Source: a virus | DNA: 39,112 bases | Strand: one strand, 5' to 3' | IMG/VR virus record: IMGVR_UViG_3300009088_000003 | Location: 1 to 39,112 of that record | Part shown: in pieces, positions 195 to 36,662 of the stretch | How the letters are laid out: each line of letters starts with the position of its first letter | Position numbering within the stretch: the first letter of the stretch is position 1 | Notes under the pieces: generated by a model | What the model saw: the letters and a program-made list of their open reading frames with translations, nothing else | Databases searched by the model: none | Told to the model about the DNA's origin: nothing | Translations under genes and position numbers: made by a program

Positions 195-1088
195 TTAAAA
201 AGGCGCCCCTGAAGCATGCATGGCGTTGTAGACAATGGTTGCGGCCGCGGCAGCACCAGTGTCGTTGAAGTGAATGTTGTCGGCATTGCGATTACTGGCG
301 TTCAGAGAGTCTAAATTGCCGCCAGAGAAAATAGTCGTTCCGTTAACAAGGGCGATCTGAGCATTTTGAACAGCGGTGGAAACTGCTCCGCCATTCCATG
401 TTTCTTCAGCGACGAAAGTGCGAAACCCTGTAAGCCCGCAGGAACCCATTGAGGAAAACATTGAATTCCAAGAATTAGTGTAGTTGACCTGTGAGGTTCC
501 TACGGATTGATCACTCTCGCCTTGACCCCAGAAGAAGGCAAAAGTCACGCCGGTCGTCGACGGGGTCATGCCTCGAGATGCAAGCCGAGAAATAACTTGG
601 CAGACACGATTGTAGAGAGTGGCGGTGGACCAATTAGCGACAGTGGTACCGCTAATGGCGACAGGTGCGACAACGACACGATCGAAGTTGGCATTGGTTA
701 CGAAGGTGTCGGCTACACGAGCGGCGATATTGCCTGGGCCTTGTGGAGCGGTGGTACCGAGTTGAGTGCCGCACATTGCGGCGGTTATGCTGTAACTGCC
801 AGAGTCGTAGAGGTTGAAGCCATCAACGACGGAGGAATTGGTCGGAGTGAAGAGAGTTGGGGTGATGTCTTGCCAGTTGGATTGACCTGCAGTGATCAGG
901 ACTAGGGTCTTAAGGGCCGGGTTTATGGTTTGATTTCGGCCGGTGCCACAGCCGGATTGGACAGCAGCACCAAAGGTTACATCGTTGATTTGGCCCGACC
1001 ATGGATCTGGTTTCGGATTAGCGTAGCGAGAGGCACCTAGCGACGTGAAAGCGAGAAGGGCCAGTAGAATGAAGACGCGAATCCTCAT
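195..1088 (-). CDS. Secreted SGNH/CE6-type acetylesterase, fibre-associated
   Basis: 297 residues. The ATG at 1088 overlaps the upstream fibre gene by ATGA. That start is preferred over a longer reading because it begins a Sec-type signal peptide (Arg-Ile-Arg, then a hydrophobic run to about residue 18). The SGNH/carbohydrate esterase 6 pattern is clear: nucleophile Ser70 in the AGQSN block, WGQGESD at 187-193, and the Asp270/His273 pair in the DNIHF block. Family members remove O-acetyl groups from sugars such as sialic acid or xylan. In a fibre cluster next to the endolysin, I infer that it deacetylates capsule or O-antigen during adsorption. The signal peptide is unusual for a virion protein. 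Confidence 0.82.
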   Translation of the reverse strand: MRIRVFILLALLAFTSLGASRYANPKPDPWSGQINDVTFGAAVQSGCGTGRNQTINPALKTLVLITAGQSNWQDITPTLFTPTNSSVVDGFNLYDSGSYSITAAMCGTQLGTTAPQGPGNIAARVADTFVTNANFDRVVVAPVAISGTTVANWSTATLYNRVCQVISRLASRGMTPSTTGVTFAFFWGQGESDQSVGTSQVNYTNSWNSMFSSMGSCGLTGFRTFVAEETWNGGAVSTAVQNAQIALVNGTTIFSGGNLDSLNASNRNADNIHFNDTGAAAAATIVYNAMHASGAPF

Positions 1089-2839
1089 TGCCAAAGCTCC
1101 GCGTGGATTCCGGTTTGAAGATACGCCACACCAGCCGTGCCATCCCAAGTTGAGGCGGTGGTGGTGGTATTGAATTCAATTGCAGCATAGGTGTGATAGC
1201 CAAGGCCGGGCACACCGGAATAGGTACCAACCACGAGCTGAACAGTAGCTTGTCCAGATCCAATGAAACCGGTAGTGCCAGAGAAAGCGGTCGTGGAATC
1301 TATGCCAATACCGGCGGCCATATTTGTCGATGCGCCTGGAACGCCAGTAGCATAATATTTTATGTAAATTGGATCTTCGTTCAATCCGCGAAGTTGAAGA
1401 ACGACGCAGGAAGTAGAACCATTTATCTCGCGCCAAGTATTGGCTACAGCGTAGGTCCAACTTGCACTATTGATGCCAAGCATCGTAGAAACAGGAACGC
1501 GGTTATAAGCATTGAAAACCGCGAAATTAGCGCCGGTGCATGCAGCAGCGAAACCACCATAGGTGAAATTGATCAGCGCCGAACCATCACTACGTATCGA
1601 ACCGATATAGGTGCCAAAGCCCGCGGCAGGGCCGTTGGTGATCGTGGCGTTATTGGTCCAGATGCCCTGGTTCAGGAGCAAGGCGGTGCCCGCAGAACGC
1701 GTGGTATCGTTGGTCCAAGGCGGGCCTCGAGTACAACGATTAGTTGGGCCCGTGTCGATCCAGCAGAAAATGTCATAAATCGATGTATTGGCGACCGCCG
1801 CCGGGGATTTCGTTGCATCGGTGGTAAGCTGGGAAACTTCAGCGAAGCACGTGGAAACGAAGTTCGAGCCGTTCCATATCGGGATGATGCAGCCGCCATA
1901 AGGCGTCACGAATACGGTATTGGCAGCCGCTTGAGAAGACGTCATCACCTGCACACCCGAGGCGAGAGTGACGCGAACCTGTGGGGTGATGGGAAGTGTG
2001 AAGGTACCGCCTGCAGGCGCGGTAAAAGTGCCATCGGCACGCAGGAAATTAGTAGTGCCGCCGCCCGAAGCGGGGACCGCGCCAGACAGCCCACTCGTAA
2101 ACGTATTTATCAATGCGGTGAGCTGCGTTTGGGTCAGTGCGGCCGGCGTTCCGCCCGCAACTGAGCCAAGAACGGTGTTGGCCCCAATTGTTGGCAAATC
2201 AGTATAGGCTATTGCCCGCGCATTGAACCCGAAGGCTCCGGTTCCGAATAGCGGGACATTGTTGGTTCCGGTAAGCGCTGATTGAACTGTCCCCGATAGT
2301 GGCGACGATGCATCCGAGCGCATCGCAGTAAGGGCGGATCCATTCACCACTGACAGGCCAGTAGTAGCCGTTGGATTGGCGAACGCGGCAGTGCCGCCAG
2401 GAGTGCCGCAATCCTTTAGCCCGCCACCGACAGTAGTGAAACAAGCGCTATCACCGACGACAACCGGCAACGGGGAAACCGTCGGGAAACCTTGCGCAGC
2501 CCCATTGACAATAAATGACAGACTTTGCGCGGCAGCCGTGCCGTAATTTTGCAGGCTAATAGTGGCGGAACCGGTGGTTGACGCCCCGAAGCAAAGCTGA
2601 TTGCGACCGGCGGCGGTCTGCACGTCGGACGATACGCAGATGCCAGCCCCGCCGTTATTGGTCACGCCAATCGAACTGATTGGGCTATTGGTTGCTGATC
2701 CTCCATCCCCAACCACGCCCGAGGTCACCCAGTAAGGAACATGCCCCCGCGTGACGCTGCCTGATTGCTGAACTGCCTGCTGCGCTATCGCAGGAGTGAC
2801 GAATAACGTCAGGACCAGTAGTGCGCTGCGAATTTTCAT
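1085..2839 (-). CDS. Tail fibre-like protein with signal peptide
   Basis: 584 residues, starting with a textbook Sec signal peptide: Lys-Ile-Arg, a hydrophobic core, and AIA before QQ. Just after it comes QSGSVTRGHVPYWVTSG-VVGDGG, a motif I associate with alphaproteobacterial phage fibres. The body is rich in Gly, Ser, Thr and Ala with short hydrophobic strands, and has an FLRADGTFTAPAGG segment near residue 270 that is typical of collagen- or beta-helix-like fibre stalks. The C-terminal third (about 290-584) looks like a beta-rich head with several cysteines and ends in HAELWQ. It overlaps its upstream neighbour by 4 bp (ATGA) and the esterase by 4 bp. It is probably a receptor-binding fibre; its ligand cannot be read from the sequence. 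Confidence 0.75.
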   Translation of the reverse strand: MKIRSALLVLTLFVTPAIAQQAVQQSGSVTRGHVPYWVTSGVVGDGGSATNSPISSIGVTNNGGAGICVSSDVQTAAGRNQLCFGASTTGSATISLQNYGTAAAQSLSFIVNGAAQGFPTVSPLPVVVGDSACFTTVGGGLKDCGTPGGTAAFANPTATTGLSVVNGSALTAMRSDASSPLSGTVQSALTGTNNVPLFGTGAFGFNARAIAYTDLPTIGANTVLGSVAGGTPAALTQTQLTALINTFTSGLSGAVPASGGGTTNFLRADGTFTAPAGGTFTLPITPQVRVTLASGVQVMTSSQAAANTVFVTPYGGCIIPIWNGSNFVSTCFAEVSQLTTDATKSPAAVANTSIYDIFCWIDTGPTNRCTRGPPWTNDTTRSAGTALLLNQGIWTNNATITNGPAAGFGTYIGSIRSDGSALINFTYGGFAAACTGANFAVFNAYNRVPVSTMLGINSASWTYAVANTWREINGSTSCVVLQLRGLNEDPIYIKYYATGVPGASTNMAAGIGIDSTTAFSGTTGFIGSGQATVQLVVGTYSGVPGLGYHTYAAIEFNTTTTASTWDGTAGVAYLQTGIHAELWQ

Positions 2840-3351
2840 AATGATGCACTGCCTATGGTCAGATCCACACCAATTGCATAGATGTCGGCGTTACGGGCTG
2901 CACCTTGCGGGGTCGTCAGCGATAAAAATATCTGGTTAGCGGTGAGATTTGCAGTTGAAAACCGCGCTGAGTTCGCGAACGCCGTCAGCGTCGCCTGCAT
3001 CAGAAGATTCGCATTGGTGAGAGCCGAATAAACCTGCCCGGCGGCAACGATCGCACTGCCGCTCTTGGAAGCACCGGTGTAAAATCCGCCCGCAGCCGTA
3101 GTAATAGAACCCGATGCGTTTGTGATGATGATTCCGGTCAATTGAAAAACCTGGATCGCGCTCTGCACCACGATCGGTTGGTCATTGGTGGAATTGAAGT
3201 CGGCGTTCTGCAGAACGCCTAGTATGCGCTGTCCTGCCACCTGAGGACCGGCATCGCCGATCACGCCATTGGAAATCCACTTTGCTAGGTGGTTGCGGGT
3301 GACCGGCTGGATGAATTCGACGCTCACTGGATCATAAAACCTTGAATTCAA
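2836..3351 (-). CDS. Small fibre-related structural protein
   Basis: 171 residues if translation begins at the TTG at 3351, 20 bp inside the upstream gene. A GTG at 3327, just after that gene's stop, is an alternative. Neither start has a convincing ribosome site. Near the N-terminus is PVTRNHLAKWISNGVIGDAG, clearly the same module as SVTRGHVPYWVTSGVVGDGG in the next gene, so the two proteins share an attachment domain. The remainder is Ala-, Thr- and Ser-rich and beta-like. There is no signal peptide, unlike its fibre neighbours. I infer an adaptor or short fibre subunit. Confidence 0.7.
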   Translation of the reverse strand: MNSRFYDPVSVEFIQPVTRNHLAKWISNGVIGDAGPQVAGQRILGVLQNADFNSTNDQPIVVQSAIQVFQLTGIIITNASGSITTAAGGFYTGASKSGSAIVAAGQVYSALTNANLLMQATLTAFANSARFSTANLTANQIFLSLTTPQGAARNADIYAIGVDLTIGSASL

Positions 3352-3601
3352 TCGCTGATACGGATATCGTCCCAGCCGTAGCTATCGCCCATAATTCCGC
3401 TTGAGCTGCTGCTTCCGAAATAATGAACGGCCTGCCGCCAAGAATCTTTAAGCCATTCGATGAGTCGAGATCCGATCCTCCGACCGCAAAATCATTTGAC
3501 GATTCCACCGCGCCCTGTACCCGGGTCGCGTCAGAACTCCAAATTTGCACTGCCACAGTCGTTACGGAATTCACGGATGATTTTGCGGTTATTAACTTCA
3601 T
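3332..3601 (-). CDS. Small virion protein, unknown
   Basis: 89 residues. The ATG at 3601 has AGGA seven bases upstream. The sequence alternates polar and hydrophobic residues (VTTVAVQIWSSD, RPFIISEAAAQAELWAIAT, TISVSAIEFKVL), as expected of a small all-beta structural protein. The RPFIISEAAAQAELWAI stretch resembles small head- or tail-decoration proteins that occur singly among phage fibre genes. It lies between two other small fibre-cluster genes and overlaps the next one by 20 bp. I do not recognise a named family. Confidence 0.65.
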   Translation of the reverse strand: MKLITAKSSVNSVTTVAVQIWSSDATRVQGAVESSNDFAVGGSDLDSSNGLKILGGRPFIISEAAAQAELWAIATAGTISVSAIEFKVL

Positions 3602-3610
3602 GGTACGATC

Positions 3611-3970
3611 CTATCTATAACTAACTGTGATGTCTGAAGATGTTGCAGAACCGGTTACCAATGTTAATCCGATGCCGTAAGCAACATCATAAAGTAGGCA
3701 TTGCGGCAGGAACCCGGTGGCCGGCAGGGTAATCGTTCCAATTTTGGTGCCTGCTGCGGATGTTCCATCGTAGATTGTTATAGTCGACGAGCCGATAGGA
3801 TTATTAAAACAAACAGTGTGCAGAATGCCATTGCCCGTTCGGGCCAATGCGGTTCCTGTCCCTGTGATATTCAAATACTGGTAACTAGGATTGGATTGCG
3901 CGCAGGCGGCGGCGATCCATGCGAGCGACAGGAATAATCCAGTCAAAATAGCCTTGAAATGTCGCTTCAT
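3611..3970 (-). CDS. Small beta-rich virion protein with signal peptide
   Basis: 119 residues from the ATG at 3970. It has GGAGG five bases upstream and begins a signal peptide: Lys-Arg-His, a hydrophobic core ILTGLFLSLAWIAAA, and ACA before QS. An in-frame start further upstream would run into the previous gene and lose this layout. The mature part has the pattern of small phage beta-sandwich proteins: GILHTVCFNNP, TITIYDGTSAAGTKIGTI, GLTLVTGSATSSDITVSYR. The two Cys in the mature part (VCFN and QCLL) could pair once exported. The role is unknown; it is probably a fibre-tip or decoration component. Confidence 0.72.
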   Translation of the reverse strand: MKRHFKAILTGLFLSLAWIAAACAQSNPSYQYLNITGTGTALARTGNGILHTVCFNNPIGSSTITIYDGTSAAGTKIGTITLPATGFLPQCLLYDVAYGIGLTLVTGSATSSDITVSYR

Positions 3971-3990
3971 CACTTCCTCCGTATTTGGAA

Positions 3991-6531
3991 CTAGTTTAGC
4001 ATTGAAGGGGGTCCGATGTAAAACGACTGTGAAACACTCGTAAACTGACGGGATTGCAGATAACAAGACCAAAAACCGTGCTGATCGACAAAAGCAGCCG
4101 GCAATACGCATAAAGTATAGGTTCGGCTTTCAAAAATGCCTTTTGGGGTTCCAACATCAATTAACCCGACATAAGTGTCCGGCGACGTAATCATGAACTG
4201 GATACCATCGGGCTTGGTGAAAATCATGCTGTAGGAATCGGTCAGATTAAGCTCCGAACCCGCATCGATCAACACGGCAATCGCCTCCCCCACAATGACA
4301 TTATTAGTTGCTGGCGCTTGGAAAAAACGCAAGATATTCACATTGCCAAAAGCAGCATCCAAAGCGATTACTTTTGCCGCGGTCAATCTCGTGGGAATTG
4401 GCGGGATTGGCGGGATTGGCGGAATCAAAATACCAAATATTTCCTGTAATCGATCCGGTATCTTAAGCAGCTTGATCTGATCGAAAAAATTCTGCGTAGC
4501 ATAAAAACTCGCCAGTGACGGCGATGATCCAGCAAACGGACCTTGCGCAAATTCGTTTGAACGCTTGAGACTTATTTTAGCAAACCAATCAACTAGCGCA
4601 TTTTTAATGGTAATTGATTGCGCGGTCGCCTGCAAAAACTCGAAACTGATAGGCGGCTGTTTGATCTTTACAATATCGAAAAACGAAGTCGTTTCTATGA
4701 TCGGCACTAGGAATGGTGCACCGAATGCTTCTTGCGTACGCTCCGGTATTTTCAACAATTTTACTTTATCAAACCACGCTTCATAGGACTCCGGCGTCCA
4801 GAATCGTTGCGGATAGAGCTCGCCGAATCGCTTTGGCGGTTTTAACAGCCTACCGGCATCAAACCAATTCGTGACCGAAAGATTGAAAGAAATTACCAGC
4901 GGCGCCATATCGGTCGGTTTATCGATGATCGGCGGCTTTGGTCTTATCATATCGAAAAAGACCTGTGTGATATAGGCATTGGTCAGCGTCGGCGATGTTC
5001 CTGAAAACGGCCCTTGGGTGAACTCACTAGGACGTTTTAACCAGATTGATTCAAAGAACGGCTGTTCAACAATAGCTAAAGCAACCGTTACGATCGGTGG
5101 GAATACTGGAAGTTGATCGATAATGGGTTGCTTGAGTTTGATAGACTCGAAGAAGGCCGTCGTTTTTATGTTCGACGGCAGAAATGGAACACCGAATGAT
5201 TCGGATAAGCGTTCTGATATTTTCAACAAGCTGTTGGGATCGAAAAAGGATGAAGTTGCAAAGGTACCAGATAGTGGCGGCGAGGTTCCTGTAAATGGAC
5301 CTTGAGTAAATTCGGTAGAGCGCTTTAGCCAAAGCGGTTCGAAGAATGGTTGTTCAACAACGAAAAAGGCAGCGGCCGGAAGAGGATTGAATAGTATTGG
5401 TGCGTTATCTATGGTTGGCTGTTTGAGCCGGATCGTTTCGAAGAATGGCTGCTCAACCACAGTGCTGAGTGTAGCTGCGCGCAGTATTGGTGACGTCTCT
5501 ACCACAGGCTGCTTCAGCCGGATCGATTCGAACTGTGTATCCCCTGCAAGCTTCGGTGGAGGGAATCGAGGAACGATGTCAGGAATAGTGATTATTGATT
5601 GCTTCAGCTTGACCACATCGAAGAAAGCTGATGTTGCAAATATAGGGACTGTGATACTAGGCGGAAAAGCTAGATTCGGCTTAAATCTAAATTCTGGGCC
5701 AAGATTTGGTGCGTAGAATTCGGCGGTGCCACCAAGGGTTACTGCGGCTACAACAGTGGTACCGACTAGCGTCGCAAAGATTTCGTCTTCGGGATAGATG
5801 AGGAAGCAATAGGGATCGGCGTGGAGTAGTGAGGCTTCGCCGGCAGTAAGGATGCGATTCCAACCGGCCCAGTAGTAGATATATCCGTTCAGGCCCCCAC
5901 CAAAGTTCTGGGCATTGGCGGTGCCGCTGTTGAGATTGACCTGCTGGCCAGTGGTCGCGTTGGTGGTGGTTATTGCGCTGACTGAGGTATCCAGCTTGCC
6001 GTCAAAGTACATCAATCCAGCAGTACCTGACGTCGCCACAAATACGCCGGTATGGTAGACATTGGCGGTAAGTGACGCAGCATAGTTAAGCTGGGTGCCA
6101 CCGTTGTTACAGAAAAACGAAAGGTTGGGCCCTGTTATTACATTGAATCCGGCGACATCGACTGAAGCAGTCCCGGTGGATGTGAAATAGTTGGGGGTGC
6201 CTAAGGTGCCAAAGAATCCCGATGCGACAGAATAAGGCGCGGTGTTGGTAAATTTCTGGGTGGCCTGATTGCCCAGAGGAAGTGTGATCGAATCCGAGGT
6301 CGACGTTCCTGGGTATTTGAGGCCGTTACCGAATACGGACGTCGATGTGGTTAGTCGGGTAGTGGACGCGATGATCGCGCCGTGGCCGCTGTTTATCAGA
6401 TCAATAACCTGACCGCCAGCATCGTAGGCGTAAAATACAAGGCCAACTGCAAGCGGATGCCCTCGGTTAATGCGAGGAATGCTTCCCCAAGGCCTCTTCT
6501 GTCCACTACGATATGGTATAGGAAGTTGCAA
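3991..6531 (-). CDS. LamG-headed multi-repeat receptor-binding protein
   Basis: 846 residues in four parts. Residues 25-245 look like a LamG/concanavalin-type jelly roll, ending in GYIYYWAGWNRILTAGEA. Residues 300-700 hold 13 degenerate repeats, each starting with (F/W)F(D/E) and continuing to (K/R)LK(Q/R)P, at 303, 334, 363, 396, 429, 460, 492, 525, 556, 586, 617, 649 and 682. The spacing is 29-33. Residues 703-713 are a Pro-Pro-Ile hinge. Residues 716-846 form a beta-rich domain with FTKPDGIQF and VGTPKGIF. The position between tail proteins and fibres suggests a receptor-binding or tail-spoke protein, with the repeats as a rod or a binding surface. I know no named family for the repeats. 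Confidence 0.78.
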   Translation of the reverse strand: MQLPIPYRSGQKRPWGSIPRINRGHPLAVGLVFYAYDAGGQVIDLINSGHGAIIASTTRLTTSTSVFGNGLKYPGTSTSDSITLPLGNQATQKFTNTAPYSVASGFFGTLGTPNYFTSTGTASVDVAGFNVITGPNLSFFCNNGGTQLNYAASLTANVYHTGVFVATSGTAGLMYFDGKLDTSVSAITTTNATTGQQVNLNSGTANAQNFGGGLNGYIYYWAGWNRILTAGEASLLHADPYCFLIYPEDEIFATLVGTTVVAAVTLGGTAEFYAPNLGPEFRFKPNLAFPPSITVPIFATSAFFDVVKLKQSIITIPDIVPRFPPPKLAGDTQFESIRLKQPVVETSPILRAATLSTVVEQPFFETIRLKQPTIDNAPILFNPLPAAAFFVVEQPFFEPLWLKRSTEFTQGPFTGTSPPLSGTFATSSFFDPNSLLKISERLSESFGVPFLPSNIKTTAFFESIKLKQPIIDQLPVFPPIVTVALAIVEQPFFESIWLKRPSEFTQGPFSGTSPTLTNAYITQVFFDMIRPKPPIIDKPTDMAPLVISFNLSVTNWFDAGRLLKPPKRFGELYPQRFWTPESYEAWFDKVKLLKIPERTQEAFGAPFLVPIIETTSFFDIVKIKQPPISFEFLQATAQSITIKNALVDWFAKISLKRSNEFAQGPFAGSSPSLASFYATQNFFDQIKLLKIPDRLQEIFGILIPPIPPIPPIPTRLTAAKVIALDAAFGNVNILRFFQAPATNNVIVGEAIAVLIDAGSELNLTDSYSMIFTKPDGIQFMITSPDTYVGLIDVGTPKGIFESRTYTLCVLPAAFVDQHGFWSCYLQSRQFTSVSQSFYIGPPSMLN
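4400..4425 (-). repeat. 9-bp tandem repeat coding a Pro-Pro-Ile hinge
   Basis: The plus strand reads GGCGGGATT twice and then a partial copy (4400-4425), preceded by a related GGGAATT. On the coding strand this gives PPIPPIPPIP, at residues 703-712 of the 846-residue protein. It joins the last repeat to the C-terminal domain. Such an array can change length by slippage in steps of three residues without breaking the frame. Confidence 0.75.
4432..5625 (-). repeat. 13 tandem ~31-residue coding repeats
   Basis: This segment of the 846-residue gene encodes 13 diverged repeats in three flavours. Type A has FF(D/E)x(I/V)(K/R)LKQP. Type B has LKR(S/P) followed by EFTQGPFxGTSP. Type C has LLKIPERxQExFG. 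The order is roughly A A A B C A B A C C A B C, which suggests that an A-B-C unit of about 95 residues was itself duplicated. The DNA copies have diverged strongly, so the array is old and under protein-level constraint rather than freshly amplified. Confidence 0.8.
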
Positions 6532-6540
6532 AACCGTTCC

Positions 6541-7029
6541 TTAGTATTGAACGGCGACTGGCCCAACTTTGATCACGTGACCAGAAGCAGAAAGTGCTAC
6601 GCCGGTGCGGTTGCCGATATAGAGTTTGGTTGACCACCATGGAAGGCGAGTGATACCGGAAGCAGCATAAATGTCATTCGCAGCAGTGGCGACATTAGCG
6701 AAAGGGATTATGAAATCAGGCGGACGAGGCAAGTCTGTGGCCGAAGCGTAGTTAGCCTTTTCAAAAGAGGTGCCGCCATCAGGGGAGTAGATAAACCAGC
6801 CTTCAATGAAGCCGCCAGCGGCTGGAGTAAAAGCTCCGCCCGTTAGCATATGAACTTGACCCCAAATACCATTGGCGAAACTGGATTGGGTGAACACACC
6901 GGATGTGCCGCCAACACTGGAAATGACGTTGGCGGTGGAGGCTAACGCATTTAACTCAGTGGTCATCAACGTGACCGGGGTGGTGATGAAGCCACTAGTG
7001 CCCGCGGCTTCAAGGAAATTGGTGGCCAC
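6541..7029 (-). CDS. Small tail/virion structural protein
   Basis: 162 residues from a GTG at 7029 with GGAGG seven bases upstream. The protein is beta-rich, with GGFIEGWFIYSPDGG-type segments followed by DLPRPPDFIIPFANV and ending in VIKVGPVAVQY. I have seen this layout in small virion proteins of podoviruses, usually near the fibres. It lies three bases downstream of the 124-residue gene and nine bases before the repeat protein. No enzymatic motif is visible. It is probably a structural subunit of the tail or spoke. Confidence 0.7.
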   Translation of the reverse strand: MATNFLEAAGTSGFITTPVTLMTTELNALASTANVISSVGGTSGVFTQSSFANGIWGQVHMLTGGAFTPAAGGFIEGWFIYSPDGGTSFEKANYASATDLPRPPDFIIPFANVATAANDIYAASGITRLPWWSTKLYIGNRTGVALSASGHVIKVGPVAVQY

Positions 7030-7032
7030 GGT

Positions 7033-7407
7033 TTATCCTCCTGTGACAGCGTTGAGGATCGCCCTTGCTCCAGCTTGAGTTGTGACGGCTTGGCCACCGA
7101 CATAGGCGACGATGCCGTCCATAATGGTTTTGGCCTGCGCGATTTGGTTGGACGACACCGCACGAGATAGAGTTGGATATGTAGTTAGACTGATTGGGTG
7201 GGCGACGTTTGGTGTGCCATCAGCTGCGCCGGATGATCCGTCTGCGTTGAGGGCAGTAGTGGCCATCGCGGCAACGACTGTTGCCACTGCGTCATCGGTC
7301 CACGCTGCATCGAGGGTCAGCATTTGCTGATAGATGCTCAGCAATTGTTGCGATAGCGACATTAACTGGTTCGCGACTTGAATTGCTTGGGATTGTTGTG
7401 TGGCCAT
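7033..7407 (-). CDS. Small helical virion protein, unknown
   Basis: 124 residues. The N-terminal 45 are Gln-, Leu- and Ser-rich and strongly helical (VANQLMSLSQQLLSIYQQM). The middle is Ala-rich, and the C-terminus is small-residue-rich and ends AGARAILNAVTGG. The start ATG overlaps the stop of the upstream gene by one base. There is no catalytic motif and no signal peptide. Helical proteins of this size occur beside the beta-sandwich virion genes in this position. I infer a structural or assembly role only from context. Confidence 0.65.
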   Translation of the reverse strand: MATQQSQAIQVANQLMSLSQQLLSIYQQMLTLDAAWTDDAVATVVAAMATTALNADGSSGAADGTPNVAHPISLTTYPTLSRAVSSNQIAQAKTIMDGIVAYVGGQAVTTQAGARAILNAVTGG

Positions 7408-32315: not shown

Positions 32316-33700
32316 ACTCGCTCCTTCAACGCTTCAACGATTCGCTCGAACACAGGCTCCCATCTCATATCGTCTGTTTGTTGAAACACACGAGTTTTCG
32401 GCGTCCACAACCTATTTTCTCCATTGCAACCTAGACGATAGTCGCGTCCTAAATGTGAATATGGTATCCAACACTCTTTATCGCACATACTTGAAATATG
32501 CCCAAGAGCTGATTCTACAGTTATTACTAAATCAAGTTCTTGCAAAATTGAACAGGTGTCAGCTACGTCTCGCGCATATCCACTAAGGTCACGAATCAGT
32601 GGAGCAAACCCCCACAAATTAAGATCGCTTTTTTTTGCATCCATTTGCAATGCATAAAGTTGAACATTGGGAATTTTATACAATTCCATGAAGTGGTGAA
32701 TCGGAATATTCCGATGCTTATCGATGTCGTTCAACGGCGAACCGGCCCATGCGACACCGATATGAAACTTGCGATCCGACACCATCCAATCCTTGCGCAT
32801 CGGCGGCCGCGGCATATCGATGTTGGGGGCCGACTTTATTTCTTCATCGTTAAATCCCAAAGCGAAAGGGAGAGAGACGAACGTCGACCACGCATCCGCA
32901 TCACCCGGGAAATTTGAAGGTGAGGGCATAAAGTTAATGTTTTCGATATGACGGAATGCGTGCTCGAATACCCGTCGTAACTCGGACTGTACACACATGT
33001 GGATAAATCTACAGCGTGATGCAGCATCAAATACAAAGCGGGAATAGGATAGGGTATCGCCGAGACCCTGATCGGCAACCAAGAACAATGTCTTGCCATA
33101 TTCCCCCTTCCACTTCGGATACGGATACAACAAGAAATTCGGCAGGCGCGCTGGGAAGCGGGCCTCGAATGCCTTCAAGCCGGCGGCATACTGTCGGTCG
33201 AACAGCAAGGCAAACGCCAATTGAAATTCGGCGATCGCCATGCCTGCGGTGTCGTTCTTGTCGGCGAGCTCGAAACACTTTTTTGCACAGCTTACAGCGG
33301 TCGCAGTGGCGCCAAATATCTGATGAATCATTCCGCAATGCATCCACGGCAGTGATGACTTCGGTTCTAAATCAATTGCTTCGTGTAGTAGTAGCAGAGC
33401 TTCATTATGCCCACCTGTTTTCATCAATTCCCAAGCAAGATTAGTAAGCGTTTTGTGTCGTTCGTTTTTCGTCATCTCCCCTTCCAGCGCGCGACGAAAT
33501 AACGCCACTGCTGCATGGGGCCTAATCAAATCGGAAGCTACACATCCGTTCACATAGTAAGCATGTGACCATGAAGGATCGGCGTAGCAAGCGCTAGCAA
33601 GCAATTGATAACTGTGATCTTGATTAGTTGGTTGGGATTTATCGCGTGCTGCTTCCTCGCCTTTTACCAACAGCTTTGTAGCTTGCTCCCGCTTACTCAC
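32300..33700 (-). CDS. TPR-repeat glycosyltransferase
   Basis: 466 residues, starting at a GTG (33700) that overlaps the HNH gene's stop by 8 bp; a longer reading from 33832 would cover 140 bp of that gene and is unlikely. TPR-like helices occupy about 30-190 (TNLAWELMKTGGHNEALLLLHEAIDLEP). The catalytic part has the GT9/GT41-like blocks: FLVADQGLGDTLSYSRF at 206-222, HIGVAWAGSP, HRNIPI, LDLVITVESALGHI, and a closing WTPKTRVFQQTDDMRW. Such proteins transfer sugars to cell-surface or protein acceptors and are common in Hyphomicrobiales. It may modify host surface sugars or virion proteins. Confidence 0.78.
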   Translation of the reverse strand: MSKREQATKLLVKGEEAARDKSQPTNQDHSYQLLASACYADPSWSHAYYVNGCVASDLIRPHAAVALFRRALEGEMTKNERHKTLTNLAWELMKTGGHNEALLLLHEAIDLEPKSSLPWMHCGMIHQIFGATATAVSCAKKCFELADKNDTAGMAIAEFQLAFALLFDRQYAAGLKAFEARFPARLPNFLLYPYPKWKGEYGKTLFLVADQGLGDTLSYSRFVFDAASRCRFIHMCVQSELRRVFEHAFRHIENINFMPSPSNFPGDADAWSTFVSLPFALGFNDEEIKSAPNIDMPRPPMRKDWMVSDRKFHIGVAWAGSPLNDIDKHRNIPIHHFMELYKIPNVQLYALQMDAKKSDLNLWGFAPLIRDLSGYARDVADTCSILQELDLVITVESALGHISSMCDKECWIPYSHLGRDYRLGCNGENRLWTPKTRVFQQTDDMRWEPVFERIVEALKERVWPAG

Positions 33701-34190
33701 GATGTTTAGCTTTCCGTGCTTTAATAGTGATCGCGCGGCAGGCCATACACACCCTCGCTCCGTCACTGTTTCGTATTTCCCCGTTAAGCAAATGCCCGCG
33801 TTTACAATGCGTTTGTTTTGCTGCTTTAACACGAACGCGCGTCGGTCCTACCCCACGCATAGTATTTTCGCGATACGTCACAGGTTCGAGATGTCCAGGA
33901 TTAACGCAACATCGCATGCGACATTTGTGATCGAGTATCATCCCTGTGGGGACTGGCCCAACAAAATATTCGTATGCAACAATGTGAGCATACTGCATTT
34001 GTTGATTGCCTTCCGACAAATATCCTATCCCCATTTTACCGTAGCCGTTCCAATTAAGTGCCCCCATCCAAATATAACAACCCGAATTAGGTTCCGGAAA
34101 CGCAAACCGCTCATACCGTTCCTCGAAAGGAATACGGCCATCTCCTGGTTTGAATCTTCCATCACCCACTGATCTTGTCTTTCCACTCAT
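33693..34190 (-). CDS. HNH endonuclease
   Basis: 165 residues, overlapping the coiled-coil gene upstream by 29 bp. It carries an HNH core: AHIVAYEYFVGPVPTGM with His69, ILDHKCR (Asp87, His88), CCVNPGHLEPVTYREN (Asn97, His100), and a C-terminal zinc-like HCKRGHLL...CMACR. The layout is that of free-standing phage HNH_3-type nucleases. On the same strand as its neighbours, it could be a homing endonuclease that entered between two genes or an aid to packaging. Overlapping ends suggest that it is well integrated into translation. Confidence 0.82.
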   Translation of the reverse strand: MSGKTRSVGDGRFKPGDGRIPFEERYERFAFPEPNSGCYIWMGALNWNGYGKMGIGYLSEGNQQMQYAHIVAYEYFVGPVPTGMILDHKCRMRCCVNPGHLEPVTYRENTMRGVGPTRVRVKAAKQTHCKRGHLLNGEIRNSDGARVCMACRAITIKARKAKHRE

Positions 34191-34715: not shown

Positions 34716-35417
34716 TCAGGCCGGGATCTCCTGTATCAGCAACCGACGAACCGCCATCGACGTGAACGGCTTACCAGCCCGAGACAGCATGCCCTCCTTG
34801 GCCAACTGCTTCACCATCGAATCGTAACTCGGATGCTTACGAGAATGATATAAATCATGCATCCGATTAACGATTTCGGCCTCGTCCTGATTGATCTCGA
34901 TCGTCGAGGCGCGACCTTGGCCAACCTTGCGGTACCCAAACGGTACGTTGCCTACCGGACGCCCCGCTTTCTTGTTGGCTCTTCGTCCGTCAGCCGTTCT
35001 TTCCTTGATCCTGATTCGTTCCATGTCAGCAACCGCCGCCAGGATCGTCATGATCAACTTACCAACGCCGGTCGAAATTGGCTCATTAGAAATGTCGAAC
35101 AACACAAGTTCGACACCCTTAGCCTTGAACACCTCGAACATGTCGATGGCGTCAGAGGCGGACCGAAACATGCGGTCGAGTTTCGATGCAATCACGGTGT
35201 CACCATGTTGCATGGTTTTCAGCAGGTCTTCGCCACCTTCCCGCTTGGCCAGTTTGGTGGCGCCGGACACCCCGGCGTCGGTGAAAATCTGTACCCCCCA
35301 CTTGTCAACACCGCGGGTGCGGGCGAAGCCCTCGATCACATCGGTCTGGACCTGCAAGGACGATCGGTCAGCATTGGCCTGATCAGCGCTTGAAACGCGA
35401 ATATAACCAAGGATCAT
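34716..35417 (-). CDS. Compact serine recombinase
   Basis: 233 residues. The ATG at 35417 has GGGAGGGG upstream. The catalytic domain is intact: GYIRVSS with the nucleophile probably Ser9, the SKLDRMFRS block with Arg82 and Arg85, and ADMERIRIKERT, the long helix. After residue 155 follows PFGYRKVG...IEINQDEAEIVNRM...GMLSRAGKPFTSMAVRRLL, a Recombinase-domain (PF07508-like) segment, and the protein ends there without the zinc and coiled-coil parts of large serine integrases. It could integrate or resolve the phage genome, or invert a segment. An inverted repeat lies just upstream at 35429-35459. Confidence 0.85.
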   Translation of the reverse strand: MILGYIRVSSADQANADRSSLQVQTDVIEGFARTRGVDKWGVQIFTDAGVSGATKLAKREGGEDLLKTMQHGDTVIASKLDRMFRSASDAIDMFEVFKAKGVELVLFDISNEPISTGVGKLIMTILAAVADMERIRIKERTADGRRANKKAGRPVGNVPFGYRKVGQGRASTIEINQDEAEIVNRMHDLYHSRKHPSYDSMVKQLAKEGMLSRAGKPFTSMAVRRLLIQEIPA

Positions 35418-35459: not shown

Positions 35460-35665
35460 CGTCCCTCGTCAACCAATTCTCCCAGATGATAAGCGATAAG
35501 GTTTAAGTCGGTTACTACCGACTCGGCAATCCGCAAGCCAACTTCCGCCAACACCTTGACCTTCTCCCGTTCGGCCGGTGGCATGTCAGCGCCGACTATC
35601 TCGCTAGCCATATGGTGAAGAATTAGAAACCACGCTTCGATATCATTTTGCGTTGCTATTGGCAT
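35450..35665 (-). CDS. Small helical protein, unknown
   Basis: 71 residues. The ATG at 35665 has GGAGAG upstream and lies inside the end of the epimerase gene (23-bp overlap); a longer in-frame reading has no such site. The sequence is a helical acidic protein (NDIEAWFLILHHMASEIVGADMPPAEREKVKVLAEVGLRIAESV) ending YHLGELVDEGRLT. No known motif. It separates the sugar cassette from the recombinase. Confidence 0.65.
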   Translation of the reverse strand: MPIATQNDIEAWFLILHHMASEIVGADMPPAEREKVKVLAEVGLRIAESVVTDLNLIAYHLGELVDEGRLT

Positions 35666-36662
35666 GCGCTCTCTCCGTCTGCTGCTTGATCCACGAATAG
35701 GTTTCCGGCAAACCCTCCCATAACGAGGTATCCGGCTCCCAGCCAAGCCGCTCCAAACAAAGCCGATTGTCACTCGTGCGCGCCCAAACCCCGGTCGGTC
35801 CTTCCGTCGGCGTCCACGCCATCACCTTGCCGGCCACACTGCAAATGGTTTCGAACAATTCCTGAATCGTAAACGAGTCCGAATGAGAAATATTAACGGG
35901 CTTATCATAGTCATCGGCCATCAATCGAATCATGCCGTCAATCGTATCGTCGACATAGGTGAACGAGCGCGATTGCTGCCCATCTCCCCAAAGCTCGATC
36001 GGTGCGCCATAAGGTGCGGTAGCGACCTTGCGGCAGATCGCAGCCACAACTTTCGATCGCGGCTCCTTCCATTCGCAATACGGTCCATAGGTGTTGCCAA
36101 GACGGCCGATCGCAATCTTGAAACCGTGATTACGCGCGTAAGCGTCATACAGTTTCTCGGCGAACAGTTTCTCCTGGCCGAATGCAAATGTGTTGAAACT
36201 GGCATCAGACTCGCGGCAAGGAGGCACTGCGTAATGTTCGGGCGCAGCGATGCGCTCATTGGCAAACGGATCAATGCTGAAAGTGTCGGGATAGACACAT
36301 TGCGAGGAAGCGAAAAATATCTTGCCGACACCGCCGGTTTTCTTGATCGCTTCCAGCGTGTGCAAATTTATTCGGACTGACTCGGTGAGGATGTCAGCGT
36401 CGTTAGAACCAGTGCCGATCCACCCCAATCCGCCAACAGAACCGGCCAATTGCCAAACGCAATCGAAATCATGGCGCCAAAAATGAGCGTGATAGTCAGA
36501 AGTGTTGCAAAGATCCAAGATGTTAAATTCATTAGCGATGGATTTTCTGTAAACAGGGTGATGACGAGCAACGCTGACGACATACTGGCCTTCGGCACGC
36601 AATCGATTTTCGAGATGTGAACCTAGAAATCCGGCAGCACCTAGAATTAAATTCTTTTTCAT
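35643..36662 (-). CDS. GDP-mannose 3,5-epimerase-like SDR with Tyr-to-Phe at the active site
   Basis: 339 residues, an extended short-chain dehydrogenase/reductase. GAAGFLGSH at 8-16 is the NAD-binding turn. Blocks match plant-type GDP-mannose 3,5-epimerase: VGGLGWIG (76-83), FFASSQCVYPD (116-126), YGPYCEWKEPRSK (192-204), WGDGQQSRSFTYVDD (225-239), and EGPTGVWARTSDNRL at 287-301. Cys122 and Lys204 correspond to the acid/base pair Cys145/Lys217 of the Arabidopsis enzyme. The SDR Tyr-x3-Lys is Phe161-x3-Lys165 (TTC codon), so the oxidising step may be impaired. It overlaps its 3' neighbour by 23 bp. It may make GDP-L-galactose or a related sugar for the nearby transferases. Confidence 0.8.
   Translation of the reverse strand: MKKNLILGAAGFLGSHLENRLRAEGQYVVSVARHHPVYRKSIANEFNILDLCNTSDYHAHFWRHDFDCVWQLAGSVGGLGWIGTGSNDADILTESVRINLHTLEAIKKTGGVGKIFFASSQCVYPDTFSIDPFANERIAAPEHYAVPPCRESDASFNTFAFGQEKLFAEKLYDAYARNHGFKIAIGRLGNTYGPYCEWKEPRSKVVAAICRKVATAPYGAPIELWGDGQQSRSFTYVDDTIDGMIRLMADDYDKPVNISHSDSFTIQELFETICSVAGKVMAWTPTEGPTGVWARTSDNRLCLERLGWEPDTSLWEGLPETYSWIKQQTERAHANSNAK

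Follow-up and report, generated by a model that had tools for sequence, protein, structure and literature searches.

Genomic context and domain organization

The window analyzed here, the whole stretch of 39,112 nt spanning positions 1 to 39,112 of IMGVR_UViG_3300009088_000003, encodes homologs of terminase, portal and major capsid proteins and presumably derives from a "soil-type" phage, judging by the source of related records and by the phage's relatives. On its minus strand, an open reading frame at 3991..6531 encodes an 846-aa protein with head homologs in contigs L002, L004, L028, L029, L031, L033 and others. Its start codon is TTG, a choice backed by L002 (ATG) and L004 (TTG), which begin at the same point (MQL..). 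The protein comprises a head (residues 1-262; 5746..6531), supported by Foldseek matches in PDB and BFVD, by alignment and by dN/dS against L002, and ending in the conserved joint DPYCFLIYPEDEIFATLVG; a linker (residues 263-302; 5626..5745) that includes EFRFKPNLAFPP and is kept in L002; an array of 13 units (residues 303-712; 4396..5625), defined by unit alignment, profile and shuffles; and a C-terminal region (residues 713-846; 3994..4395) that is not present in the relatives examined and found no match in phage records.

Directly upstream, as in the relatives checked, lies a 162-residue partner gene (MATNFLEAAG...; 6541..7029, minus strand), then a 124-residue gene (7033..7407, minus strand) whose order is conserved in L002 and L004. 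Also upstream is a tape-measure-like gene with a weak PHROGs match (E=2.8e-6). Gene order and this weak match nearby indicate that the 846-aa protein is probably tail-associated. As in a tail fiber or adhesin, the gene sits in an apparent tail module and joins a conserved part to parts that are exchanged in relatives. At its other end, the array gene is overlapped by an open reading frame (3611-4111, minus strand) that looks signal-peptide-like when read from an internal Met (MKRHFKAILTGLFLSLAWIAAACAQ). Signal-peptide-like starts also occur on genes downstream in L002 and L004, which is odd for virion proteins.

A degenerate array of 31-residue units

The units start at residues 303, 333, 363, 396, 429, 460, 492, 525, 556, 586, 617, 649 and 682, with spacings of 30, 30, 33, 33, 31, 32, 33, 31, 30, 31, 32 and 33 residues. 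They consist of a core of the form (F/W)F(D/E)xx(K/R)LK(Q/R)P followed by a variable, proline-rich spacer; unit 2 begins QFE, unlike the other 12. The mean pairwise score between units is 34.6, compared to 18.0 ± 0.46 after shuffling (200 shuffles; maximum, 19.2), and the array contains 12 occurrences of [FW]F[DEA], where 5000 shuffles gave 0.84 on average and never more than 6. A unit profile, itself built from the 13 window units plus those of L002, recovers 13/13 window units at 23-42 bits each. The 13-copy, ~31-residue array proposed in the initial annotation is therefore real, its degenerate units of 30-33 residues lying far above shuffled controls. Its assigned extent (residues 303-700; nt 4432-5625) is right at the start but too short at the end, where the last unit, with a proline-rich PPIPPIPPI linker inside it (4396..4422, minus strand; Tandem Repeats Finder period 9, 100% match), reaches about residue 712 (nt 4396).

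Conservation across the 20 units of the window and L002 is strongest for F at position 2 (20/20) and D/E at position 3 (19/20), followed by L at position 7 (16/20) and K at position 8 (14/20). Information is concentrated in columns 1-12, and the proline-rich remainder is conserved within sub-types only. These sub-types run A A A B C A B A' C' C A B C along the 13 units, with mutual identities of 52-61% among B units 4, 7 and 12 and of 42-55% among C units 5, 10 and 13. The sub-types that had been described are thus recognizable, but the strict A-B-C order that went with them is not, since only units 3-5 and 11-13 preserve the whole super-unit, which recurs once more as A-B-A'-C'-C. Because synonymous sites are near or beyond saturation in most unit pairs, duplication of a ~95-residue unit is plausible but no firmer than that.

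Unit copies are only about 50-67% identical in DNA, and Tandem Repeats Finder run on the array DNA reports the PPIPPIP linker alone, which together mark an old, protein-level repeat. Against L002, the nearest relative, pooled dN/dS is 0.18 over 114 codons of the array and 0.098 in the head, which indicates purifying selection on the array. Neither a low-complexity artifact nor recent tandem duplication of DNA can explain it: copies differ at about 33-50% of DNA positions, most pairs are at or near saturation at synonymous sites, and selection has been purifying.

Searches of Pfam, PHROGs, NCBIfam and PDB sequences found nothing that covers the array, the nearest being a single sub-threshold PHROGs match of 16 residues (E=0.088), and we found no description of the FFD-KLKQP repeat in the open-access literature. 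The earlier impression that it belongs to no named repeat class thus survives these searches, with no library family or PDB chain covering the array.

Apparent gain or loss of whole units in the nearest relative

Only one other viral contig with the FFD-KLKQP repeat was found, IMGVR_UViG_3300021086_000007 (L002/L003); a search of viral contigs with the degenerate pattern FFE.I[KR]LK[QR]P returned L002 and otherwise apparently chance matches. Chance pattern matches in L015 and L017 fell in an identical 818-residue terminase-like frame, seemingly with an intein-like insertion. The L002 protein is 665 aa long, its head is 90% identical to that of the window, and its array has 7 units (29-41 bits each) compared to 13, followed by an unrelated-looking C-terminus.

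The best window counterparts of L002 units 1-5 are units 1, 3, 4, 6 and 8, in the same order; the joins between them fall exactly at the FF(D/E) core, and the DNA alignment of the two phages breaks into separate, shifted segments inside the array. The L002 array is thus apparently collinear with a subset of the window units, lost or gained at unit borders. This is the pattern that whole-unit loss or gain by recombination would leave, in either direction.

A conserved head joined to different arrays

More than a dozen relatives were collected by pattern scans for the joint (DPYxF..YPE) and the N-terminus (IPRIN..HPLA). By blastp, head identity to the window falls from 90% in L002 to 62% in L028, 42% in L031, 41% in L004, 38% in L029, 36% in L032, 34% in L076 and L033, and 29% in L026 and L023; the head match spans only 44 residues in L083 and 23 in L079. 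At the joint, these relatives bear at least four other aromatic- and proline-containing arrays (33-38 residues), several simpler ones of ~20 residues, or apparently none. The 62%-identical head of L028 is followed by a wholly different array (YNxNLFTNPIPFxxFDWxKP, period 33/67), while L004 has WYQPL units with a period of 36, L031 has a WFxPLSEPVRxKPxLxxxQQ array with a period of 36/73 in the next open reading frame, L083 has QWGPKLTPSGP units with a period of 37, and L076 has a 24-residue Ala/Ser/Pro repeat. Simpler repeats follow the head in L079, L080-L082, L023 and L032, and L026 apparently has no array after its head.

Several of the relatives are fragmentary contigs, and in L028, L029, L031 and L083 all or part of the array occupies an open reading frame apart from that of the head. 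In L028 (6971-11302, plus strand), the head and a few units end at a stop, after which a second open reading frame carries a non-repeat domain and a long stretch of additional units of this type, so that the array is split over two frames; a domain in L076 belongs to the same PHROGs family (phrog_10080) as the frame after the L028 array. In L031 (4026-6599, plus strand), the array is carried by a second open reading frame that follows the head frame; the head frame ends in a sequence (SEDRFHQPW...) resembling a unit's beginning, and a frame change may thus interrupt this gene. The array of L083 is much longer than that of the window, with a 1122-residue open reading frame after the LamG-head gene (456-3821, minus strand) consisting mostly of the ~37-residue QWGPKLTPSGP repeat.

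The 162-residue upstream gene is 91%, 86% and 57% identical in L002, L004 and L083, beside arrays that differ. Since both this gene and the head persist next to different arrays, the surroundings are conserved and the array is the part that changes. The presence of different arrays behind the same front end makes the array look like an exchangeable spacer or stalk.

Sequence relationships among the arrays

The WFxPLSEPVRxKPxLxxxQQ arrays of L013, L031, L039 and L043 resemble that of the window in having aromatic-led, proline-rich, cysteine-free units, here of 33-36 residues, but share no detectable sequence homology with its units. A profile of this type built from L013 scores 154 bits on L031, 71 bits on the Pseudolabrys metagenome-assembled genome (MAG) L039 and 48 bits on L043; because it recognizes L031, the same array type is found both head-less (L013) and after a window-type head (L031). 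On the window array, profiles of this type reach only 0.7-2.1 bits, where shuffled maxima are 6-9 bits, and the window unit profile likewise stays below shuffled maxima on the WFxPLSEPVR arrays. Neither the window, L004 nor L028 type matches the WFxPLSEPVR type, or one another, above shuffled controls. Homology of all the aromatic arrays, which is suggested by eye (WFEPIKLKRP compared to WFEPVRFKPR), consequently lacks statistical support. Since profile scores stay below those of shuffles, the arrays are best described as analogous modules at one place and not as one proven family. The types nonetheless have in common a period of 31-36 residues, 10-15% aromatic residues, 12-17% proline, no cysteine and low glycine.

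Among GTDB genomes, the pattern WF.[PATS]LSEPVR.K returned nothing, and a looser pattern gave 42 loci with arrays in only two. Within the order of the Pseudolabrys MAG, WFxPLSEPVR-type arrays occur in 2/397 genomes, that MAG included, and the window protein in 0/397.

Predicted structure of the head and the array

AlphaFold models the head with moderate confidence as a beta sandwich, all beta, with pLDDT mostly 60-80. Foldseek with this model gave 247 PDB matches at E<=0.001, of which the best 50 are mainly sialidases and neurotoxin-type binding domains and include AbnA domain 4 (TM 0.68 by target). The top BFVD match is ConA-like, and many phages have predicted LamG proteins that look similar to the head, among them entries annotated as virion structural, tail-hub and tail-fiber proteins. 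Laminin_G_3 (PF13385) scores 15.9 bits on the head, below its gathering cutoff of 27.6. The head is therefore LamG/ConA-like by predicted fold only, its Pfam score being sub-threshold, and these clear similarities to lectin domains of the ConA-like class and to LamG proteins of phages support the LamG-like head that had been anticipated from the sequence.

For the array, AlphaFold returned a pLDDT of about 30 when the full protein was modeled as a monomer (9 alignment rows) and of 51, with a pTM of 0.14, when four units were modeled alone with sibling units as rows (5 rows). With alignments this shallow, low pLDDT is uninformative and is not evidence of disorder. Many phage fibers fold only as trimers. 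Since the models here are monomers, they leave room for a folded repeat in which the units supply beta strands for either a solenoid or a trimeric fiber shaft of beta structure, as would also suit the regular period, hydrophobic composition, lack of cysteine and low glycine. The very-low-confidence array models, however, contain no predicted strands, the four-unit model found no fold match in BFVD, and the unit length drifts from 30 to 33 with the drift placed in the spacer, so we regard a folded shaft of this kind as rather unlikely. The solenoid or fibrous rod of the initial annotation is accordingly unproven, as these monomer models gave the array no confident fold, and its beta C-terminal domain is not supported, pLDDT there being about 30.

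Another reading is that the array, taken alone, is largely unfolded, and that each (F/W)F(D/E)xxKLK(Q/R)P core docks as a linear motif in the pocket of a repeated virion subunit, so that the protein would follow the tail or wind around it as a decorated rope. Such an arrangement would account for conservation limited to a ~10-residue core, for a proline-rich spacer that varies freely at nearly constant length, for the near-constant spacing of units (30-33) in both phages and for the missing AlphaFold fold of the lone chain. The last of these may only mirror a shallow alignment, though, and the binding partner is putative. Mean hydropathy of the array (0.509) is also well above the disorder boundary of 0.415, unusual for a disordered chain, and its composition argues against plain disorder. 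We therefore consider docking along the tail a doubtful explanation.

Proposed role of the array

We consider it somewhat probable that the array is the middle part of a modular, tail-associated adhesin or fiber-like protein of an uncultured tailed phage, in which it serves as an exchangeable stalk or spacer that evolves unit by unit. The conserved head region would anchor or display the protein on the virion, and the array would determine how far the protein reaches and how far the head stands from the variable C-terminal part. We infer this role from the position of the array between a conserved head and a variable end, from the change in unit number and from replacement by other arrays whose units are about as long. 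Neither the array nor the C-terminus yielded a confident structure, so that an extended stalk is a proposal. Array length would shift by whole-unit loss or gain, probably when conserved cores of different units recombine, and entire arrays would be swapped by exchange at the joint after the head. The constrained element would be the ~10-residue aromatic/basic core, with the ~20-residue proline-rich rest free to vary.

Variation in unit number could also mean that every unit is a small element that binds carbohydrates or surfaces, with copy number tuning avidity, which would fit the tail-side context, the aromatic-rich units and the LamG head of the protein. A binding domain of this size would be short, however, and no family or fold match backs binding, which makes a receptor-binding array improbable. 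Tuning of avidity by copy number has been suggested for the tail-associated BACON tandem repeats of crAss-like phages (PMC6949934), the closest published parallel that we found. Those repeats likewise belong to a presumed phage tail protein and their units evolve by duplication and exchange. BACON is, however, a recognized domain family, whereas the window units are ~31 residues long with a much shorter core and have no family match or predicted fold; no Pfam match, to BACON or otherwise, was found in the window array, and the phages concerned and their hosts appear unrelated to those of the window. Phage structural proteins of the LamG/ConA-like kind (Laminin_G_3, PF13385) have a fold in common with head residues 1-262, but no tool matched the array. 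FFD-KLKQP is thus a real, rare and new repeat, in that no searched family covers it, within a protein that is itself of a known modular phage kind, as the BACON parallel illustrates.

Were the array an exchangeable stalk, the presumed adhesin would swap its spacer and not its tip, changing length unit by unit. More broadly, though somewhat doubtfully, one conserved LamG-headed protein in a family of environmental phages may dock many unrelated arrays of ~20-38-residue units, exchanged as cassettes and resized unit by unit. FFD-KLKQP would then be one among several structural repeat classes not described before, and the aromatic-led, proline-rich arrays of 31-38 residues may have in common a new stalk fold that sequence comparison can no longer recognize. 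The arrays are repeat proteins missing from the searched family libraries and are possible targets for structure determination.

Other genes in the window

A sialate-acetylesterase-like gene (SASA, PF03629, E=3e-6; 195-1148, minus strand) possibly encodes a tail-borne glycan deacetylase. At the other end of the window, also on the minus strand, are a gene resembling NAD-dependent epimerase/GDP-mannose dehydratase (PF01370, E=2e-38; 35643-36662) and a serine recombinase gene (PF00239, E=1.5e-31; 34716-35417), which adjoins an HNH endonuclease gene at 33693-34190.
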